In this document: positions 994-50,694 of the stretch, piece after piece
How the letters are laid out: each line of letters begins with the position of its first letter
Numbering within the stretch: position 1 is the stretch's first letter
NCBI GenBank assembly: GCA_007378985.1
Contig: VMHB01000002.1
Location: 105,428 to 158,272, forward strand
Direction of reading: 5' to 3'
DNA: 52,845 nucleotides
Source: Parcubacteria group bacterium Greene0714_7
GTDB taxonomy: Bacteria; Patescibacteriota; Minisyncoccia; Phycocordibacterales; Phycocordibacteraceae
Notes under the pieces: model-generated
The model's input: the letters and a program-made list of their open reading frames with translations, nothing else
Database searches by the model: none
What the model was told of the DNA's origin: nothing
Program-made: the position numbers and the translations under genes

Positions 994-1189
994 AATGTGC
1001 TTATTTATAGCACACTTCGAGTCAGTGAGACTAGGGGAACGCTCTACAAGAACACCGACCTTCTTTTGAAGGGGTATTTGTTTGAAGCGAATGTGTAGCG
1101 TAGGATAGAACAGTTGCTCCTGTAAGGAAACCTTTCAGGAGCTTCACTCGAAGAAAATAGAAAAAGTAATCCTATTTTCCTTCTCGTTC

Positions 1190-1260
1190 GCTCCTGTAGT
1201 GAAATGGATATCATAACTGCCTTCGAAGCAGTCGTTGGGGGTTCGAATCCCTCCGGGAGC
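1190..1260 (+). tRNA. tRNA-Arg (TCG)
   Basis: Acceptor GCTCCTG/CGGGAGC (one G-U), anticodon stem ACTGC-CTTCGAA-GCAGT, T-loop GGTTCGAATCC. Confidence 0.92.
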
Positions 1261-1449
1261 ACATAAAAAATCGACGTTAGGAGATTTTGCTATGTTGCGG
1301 AGGGATTCGAATGGCGGAGGCGGCGAAGCCGCGAGCGAGTAGCGAGCGCACGCCGAGCCGGGATCGCGCAAATTTTCTGCAGAAAATTATGCGTGATCGA
1401 ATGCCTTTTGAGCTGTCTTGCTGGCAGATTCCTATCGTACAATGAGCCT

Positions 1450-50372: not shown

Positions 50373-50580
50373 AGTTTTTAGAGCATAATCCAGAAATCCG
50401 TTTGAGAACATTGAGTTCTTACATGGAGCACCAAGAGAAGAACTCGCACCCGCAACAAAAGCAAGGCTTTTATTTCGGGCGGGAACTTCAAGAGAAGAAA
50501 GTAGAGTGCGCCCGTAAGCAGAGCTTTCGGGCCGCTCGCTCGAAGAAAATAGAAATACATTTCCATTTTCCTTCTCGCTC

Positions 50581-50652
<72 letters not shown>

Positions 50653-50694
50653 ACAAAACAAAGAAATATCCTGCCTGCGCAGGATTTTCTTGTT

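Follow-up and report, generated by a model that had tools for sequence, protein, structure and literature searches.

The window analyzed here, a 52,845-nt stretch of the genome of Parcubacteria group bacterium Greene0714_7, carries a tRNA-Arg(UCG) and a tRNA-Lys(UUU) gene, each directly preceded by a copy of the same non-coding repeat (Table 1). At tRNA-Arg, a -10-like box is followed by a direct copy of the first seven bases of the tRNA (S1), an element-encoded stretch (P0), the inverse complement of the same seven bases (S2), a second hairpin (P2), and then the tRNA, whose own nt 1-7 we term S3. Sequence and coordinates agree with the original prediction: GCTCCTG (1116-1122), TAAGGAAACCTTT, and CAGGAGC (1136-1142), followed by CTCGAAGAAAATAG...CTATTTTCCTTCTCG. 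All 14 arm bases (S1 plus S2) match tRNA-Arg, and S2 is able to pair with either S1 or the tRNA 5′ strand. As was also predicted, tRNA-Lys has this layout with its own, different acceptor sequence, GCGCCCG (50508-50514) and CGGGCcGC (50528-50535), the latter with one extra C.

Table 1. Features of the two repeat-bearing tRNA loci (positions in the window).
Feature	Position	Strand	Basis or remark
-10-like box TAGGAT	1101-1106	+	9 nt upstream of S1; flank identical in sister genome G009
Repeat copy before tRNA-Arg	1116-1189	+	5′ layout: promoter, S1, P0, S2, P2, then tRNA
S1, direct copy of tRNA-Arg nt 1-7, GCTCCTG	1116-1122	+	Sequence; own-tRNA match
P0, element-encoded, TAAGG-AAA-CCTTT	1123-1135	+	Alignments; family consensus TAAGC-AAA-GCTTK
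S2, inverse complement of tRNA nt 1-7, CAGGAGC	1136-1142	+	Covariation; own-tRNA match
P2 hairpin, CTCGAAGAAAATAG ... CTATTTTCCTTCTCG	1146-1187	+	Covariance model R2; 96% of stem cells paired
tRNA-Arg(UCG), start GCTCCTGTAG; nt 1-7 (1190-1196) are S3	1190-1262	+	ARAGORN; Rfam RF00005
Inverted copy of tRNA-Arg T-arm, CGGAGGGATTCGAA	1298-1311	+	Separate 3′-side repeat family
Repeat copy before tRNA-Lys(UUU)	50508-50580	+	R1 match G000:C4:155935-156007, 75.9 bits
tRNA-Lys(UUU); nt 1-7 are S3 of the Lys copy	50581-50654	+	ARAGORN

The repeat is ~65-74 nt long and is situated directly 5′ of many different tRNA genes. Its general order is S1 (tRNA nt 1-7), UAAGC-loop-GCUUK (P0), S2 (the inverse), about 3 nt, P2, about 2 nt, and the tRNA. 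The core, comprising P0 (TAAGC-loop-GCTTK) and P2 (CTCG...CTCG), belongs to the repeat, unlike the 7-nt arms S1 and S2. Within the P2 region, RY, UC, a stem with loop, a bulged C, UC, and RY follow one another, such that RY/RY pairs lead through a conserved UC/UC internal loop into an A-rich stem with the bulged C. We built one covariance model (R1) from 8 of the genome's own copies and a second (R2) from 38 copies. The P0/S1:S2 and P2 hairpins both covary strongly, and nearly all pairs show compensatory changes: Both sides change in 21 of 23 helix pairs, and covariation is 0.624 compared with 0.218 after shuffling (0/500). The outer pair, which closes the UC/UC internal loop, alternates between C-G (19) and U-A (13). 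When 12 loci were compared with the covariance models of Rfam 15, the element reached the cut-off of no family; tRNA matches were the only ones above it.

Distribution of the repeat among tRNA genes and genomes

The original prediction was to fall if other tRNAs lacked mimics of their own acceptor strand. We find the element before at least 13 tRNA genes of this genome (850 kb, with ~40 tRNA genes) and before 115 in related Patescibacteria. In this genome, it or a variant precedes the genes for Pro-UGG, Arg-UCG, Arg-GCG, Arg-UCU, Ala-CGC, Ala-UGC, Ile-UAU, Lys, Met, Trp, Asp, Val-GAC, and Val-UAC. Matches to R1 or R2, for which model E-values are rough, occur throughout the genus (10 of 10 genomes), in some of the family, and in 38 of 297 genomes and 27 of 165 genera of the order; the genomes compared are mostly assemblies of uncultured organisms. 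Presence is patchy across the order, and beyond it there are outliers in single genomes of the class and of the phylum. In the phylum outlier, two tandem copies precede tRNA-Gly and carry the acceptor sequence with one mismatch; the class outlier lies between two genes that resemble rpmF and nusB by eye.

Among 224 copies examined, 116 end 0-5 nt 5′ of a tRNA. The remainder comprise tandem arrays ending at tRNAs, copies in tRNA fragments, and copies in intergenic places without a tRNA. A strict pattern scan of GTDB returned two contigs, one from Ca. Kaiserbacteria and one from Ca. Paceibacterota. Our search of open PMC papers found nothing on tRNA leaders that mimic an acceptor strand. One copy lies immediately 5′ of an apparent 5S rRNA gene (L106 1501-1573). 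A subfamily with common flanks, GGTGTACA | GCTCCTGTAAAG ... CTGTAAGGAGAGAATCC, is present at loci L014, L108, and L115, and at L014 and L115 it continues into copied tRNA 3′-end sequence.

Correspondence between the arms and the adjacent tRNA

The original claim that the mimic copies the acceptor strand of its own tRNA is borne out across the genome: Over 39 of its tRNAs, the match between upstream sequence and own tRNA is 397, compared with 331 ± 8 in shuffled pairings (0/20,000). In 103 clean tRNA cases, S1 agrees with S3 at 5.92 of 7 positions, S1 pairs with S2 at 6.09 of 7, and S2 with S3 at 5.85 of 7. When arms were permuted among tRNAs for the same amino acid, S1-S3 agreement fell to 4.98 and S2:S3 pairing to 5.14, and the observed values were reached in 0 of 2000 permutations. 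Thus, the arms correspond to the tRNA of their own genome far better than to same-amino-acid tRNAs of other species. Genome-wide shuffles and same-amino-acid permutations together rule out a coincidental match.

The copied stretch is sharply bounded. The element is ~0.9 identical to the tRNA across nt 1-8; identity is 0.79 at nt 9 and drops to 0.02 at nt 10. Elements before tRNAs with C or G at nt 9 almost invariably have A there. This element-coded A9 rules out a simple 9-bp target duplication (N7TA). The copy is therefore of the acceptor strand alone, and not of a longer duplicated target.

The two pairings of S2 are equally conserved: S3 is the better partner in 19 of the 103 cases, S1 in 18, and the two are equal in 66. 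Where tandem arrays have unlike arms, complementarity between S1 and S2 is missing within a unit, and S2 instead pairs with the seven bases at the start of the following unit. In copies away from tRNAs, S2 still pairs with the bases that follow the element. The corresponding S2:S3 pairing energies are -8.9 versus -5.0 kcal/mol for tandem arrays and -7.6 versus -3.1 kcal/mol for non-tRNA copies. Thus, the invariant of the family is the S2-P2-S3 hairpin; S1:S2 pairing is additional and arises where S1 and S3 agree. These arrays and non-tRNA copies rule out the S1:S2 mimic hairpin as the sole conserved structure.

The element is probably transcribed as a pre-tRNA leader, judging from promoter-like sequences. 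Hexamers resembling a -10 box are enriched at -20 to -11 of S1 (0.26 per gene compared with ~0.08 expected, 115 elements), while in genes without the element they are enriched 11-25 nt 5′ of the tRNA. The element thus lies between promoter and tRNA and should be part of the pre-tRNA. In predicted folds of 76 pre-tRNAs, the S1:S2 and S2:S3 states have nearly equal mean energies (-58.2 and -57.2 kcal/mol, respectively). Pre-tRNA-Arg favors S1:S2, while the minimum free energy structure of pre-tRNA-Lys is the swapped state. The suggestion that the mimic could pair with either acceptor strand of the real tRNA therefore holds as a matter of thermodynamics only. RNase P RNA is present in this genome as a full-length match of 79 bits, a value below the gathering score, ruling out the idea that RNase P is missing and that the leader replaces it.

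Near-equal energies would suit a cis-acting leader RNA under selection, in which S1, S2, and S3 form a three-strand switch that tunes tRNA maturation or termination. S1:S2 would let the tRNA fold, and S2:S3, with S1 pairing to the tRNA 3′ strand, would hold the tRNA back. The equal conservation of the two pairings, the limitation of the copy to exactly nt 1-7 with an element-coded nt 9, the upstream promoter, and arms that track species-specific tRNA changes are all consistent with such a switch, which we regard as the main rival to a mobile repeat. We nevertheless consider it rather unlikely as the explanation. Presence at a given tRNA varies even between sister species, tRNAs of all kinds carry the element, and many copies lie away from tRNAs. 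Furthermore, S1 and S2 of a single unit are non-complementary in unlike-arm arrays, and neither a terminator nor a ligand motif is seen.

Some of these tRNA genes also appear to be split by introns. The tRNA-Asp(GUC) gene is split in its anticodon loop by a likely group I intron (L003 1578-1880, G000:C4; Rfam 29.8 bits, below cut-off), and the split gene has an element at its 5′ side that overlaps the end of a LAGLIDADG-like ORF. More tRNA genes of this genome appear, by eye, to be split by group I introns (L111 405-900 and L108 1-120, G000).

Insertion, probable mobility, and comparison with known systems

The Arg-UCG site is empty in the sister genome G009. There, the flank is identical at 25 of 25 positions, the tRNA follows directly and with base precision, and the same -10-like box lies 9 nt before the tRNA itself. 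The Arg-UCG genes of five other genus members (G005, G006, G001, G002, and G004) likewise lack the element. Thus, the window copy was gained recently in this lineage. The Ala-CGC site of G009 is also empty (flank 23/25), and its Trp site nearly so (24/25, with a 2-nt offset). Gln-UUG is reversed, being filled in G009 and empty here; the G009 insertion follows the D-loop GGTA and has a 20-nt direct repeat of tRNA nt 1-20. Truncated tRNA copies before Val, Gln, and Lys have further element copies nested inside their D-loops, which also fits insertion.

In one genome (G178), two loci have an identical 46-nt core and a third has a copy that differs by one base (98%), while S1, S2, and S3 differ between the loci yet still pair; thus, the arms change and the core stays. 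The cores closest to the recent Arg copy are only ~0.8-0.88 identical, so no direct donor was found for it.

With moderate confidence, we favor the reading that the Arg element is a young member of a family of dispersed palindromic repeats, non-coding and inserted between promoter and tRNA base 1, with arms derived from the local tRNA. The repeat is probably mobile, and its arms would either be copied from the target tRNA or be corrected rapidly to match it. Since the window copy was recently inserted yet has matching arms, the repeat apparently adopts its target's sequence. It might do so as a mobile hairpin that reads its target, copying the 7-nt acceptor strand in inverted and direct form into its own arms upon insertion; we put this forward tentatively and rate it somewhat short of probable.

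The most likely mechanism would run as follows. The repeat would insert before nt 1 of a tRNA gene, and the target would serve as template for its arms at the time of insertion or soon afterward. The simplest route would be fold-back DNA synthesis, or else quasi-palindrome correction, around P0 and P2, in which S3 templates S2 and S2 then templates S1. The element would become a 5′ leader, which RNase P should remove. In the RNA, S1:S2 may form first and keep S2 off the tRNA 5′ strand. Insertion is tolerated, as the tRNA starts intact after the element. A mobile repeat and an RNA switch are compatible, as S1 would protect the tRNA from S2 after insertion.

The order of direct, inverted, and direct copies (N-N′-N) at both tRNA ends is also the order expected of plain replication errors, namely tandem inversion duplication or quasi-palindrome template switching, with no dispersed element involved. 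However, the same conserved, covarying P0 and P2 sequences recur at every tRNA and across many genera, and the junctions are thus conserved element rather than local palindromes. This shared core already largely refutes such errors as the explanation, which we consider very improbable.

Dispersed repeats are normally recognized by their fixed ends. If the mobile repeat indeed reads its target, its hairpins would be kept and the tRNA left intact, and it could live before tRNA genes of any specificity. Ends that adopt the sequence of each target, exactly within the limits of the acceptor strand, would mean that some copying process is linked to tRNA genes; to our knowledge, no such process has been described. 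The repeat also illustrates how insertions at essential single-copy genes are tolerated in genomes of 0.6-1 Mb. It places an antisense to the acceptor strand in many pre-tRNAs, which makes tRNA maturation in these organisms a testable question.

Several known systems are alike in part. Miniature elements of the MITE type (Correia/NEMIS and ERIC) are short, non-coding, palindromic, and dispersed, are transcribed with neighboring genes, and have precise empty sites. The element, too, has short, non-coding, dispersed copies with clean empty sites. However, MITE ends are fixed sequences, whereas the arms here match each target and form no conserved terminal inverted repeats. The direct repeat varies in length, usually nt 1-7/8, as against nt 1-20 in the Gln D-loop case, and is thus not accounted for by a standard target-site duplication. 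REP/BIME sequences, moved by RAYT/Y1 transposases, similarly form hairpins beside a GTA(G)-like foot, arrays, and many copies. In the element, TA is nearly constant after S1, but the stems are not conserved in sequence, as REP stems are. We found no association with Y1 transposases (PF01797), which occur in 22 of 38 element genomes and 161 of 259 others; G002 has 16 element copies and zero PF01797 genes. A Y1/RAYT transposase is therefore ruled out as the driver.

Integron attC sites are likewise imperfect hairpins with internal loops, conserved in structure above sequence, and occur in arrays. Their boxes are GTTRRRY/RYYYAAC, and the arms of non-tRNA copies are often GTYRRAG/CTYYRAC, loosely like attC R′/R″ boxes. 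Unlike attC sites, the element has no cassettes, and its arms follow tRNA acceptor strands. T-box leaders and tRNA-related riboswitches are leader RNAs with mutually exclusive hairpins that use tRNA acceptor sequence; the leader described here instead precedes the tRNA gene itself and has no T-box, specifier, terminator, or Rfam match. The tRNA-targeting retroelements Ty3 and Dictyostelium TRE insert just upstream of many different tRNA genes and thus share the insertion site, whereas the element is non-coding, bacterial, and carries a direct and an inverted copy of a tRNA strand.

Leaders of Val, Gln, and Lys genes (L152, L161, L163, L047, and L011) contain longer tRNA 5′ copies that extend through the D-arm, with the element in the D-loop. 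The tRNA-Ile(UAU) gene of this genome has the acceptor GCGCCCG and an element, while that of G009 has CCACCCT and no element (L006 and L217, respectively). A tRNA remnant with CCACCCT lies upstream of tRNA-Ile(UAU), as if the acceptor had been replaced.

Repeats on the 3′ side of tRNA genes

Many tRNAs also have an inverted copy of their T-arm on the 3′ side (mean longest match 9.11 nt to the own tRNA compared with 6.42 ± 0.26 nt when shuffled). A direct 19-nt copy of tRNA nt 56-74 often lies further 3′ (9.54 compared with 6.27 ± 0.32). These 3′-side repeats form a second family, in which direct, inverted, and direct copies again follow one another. For several tRNAs, the direct copies of nt 56-74 are 134-220 nt 3′ of the gene, with inverted copies in between, and the 3′-side copy at Val is present in G009 and absent here.

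Both observations could mean that remnants of integrative elements or of recombinase sites persist at tRNA genes. S1 and S3 would then be att-like direct repeats on the 5′ side, with the 19-nt copies after tRNAs as their 3′ counterpart. The insert between S1 and S3 is only ~65-74 nt and has no cargo. Moreover, every tRNA would require its own core sequence, and the inverted S2 would go unexplained. We thus regard integrative remnants as improbable and retain the mobile palindromic repeat as the preferred reading of the 5′ element.

In the window, 3′-side repeats lie at 753-771, 862-873, 1298-1311, and 40-58 and belong to tRNA-Gly, tRNA-Arg, and tRNA-Pro, the last of which is located outside the window. 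They share a conserved internal part, GAAAGCCGGAGC..GGGGTCG..GTGACC.
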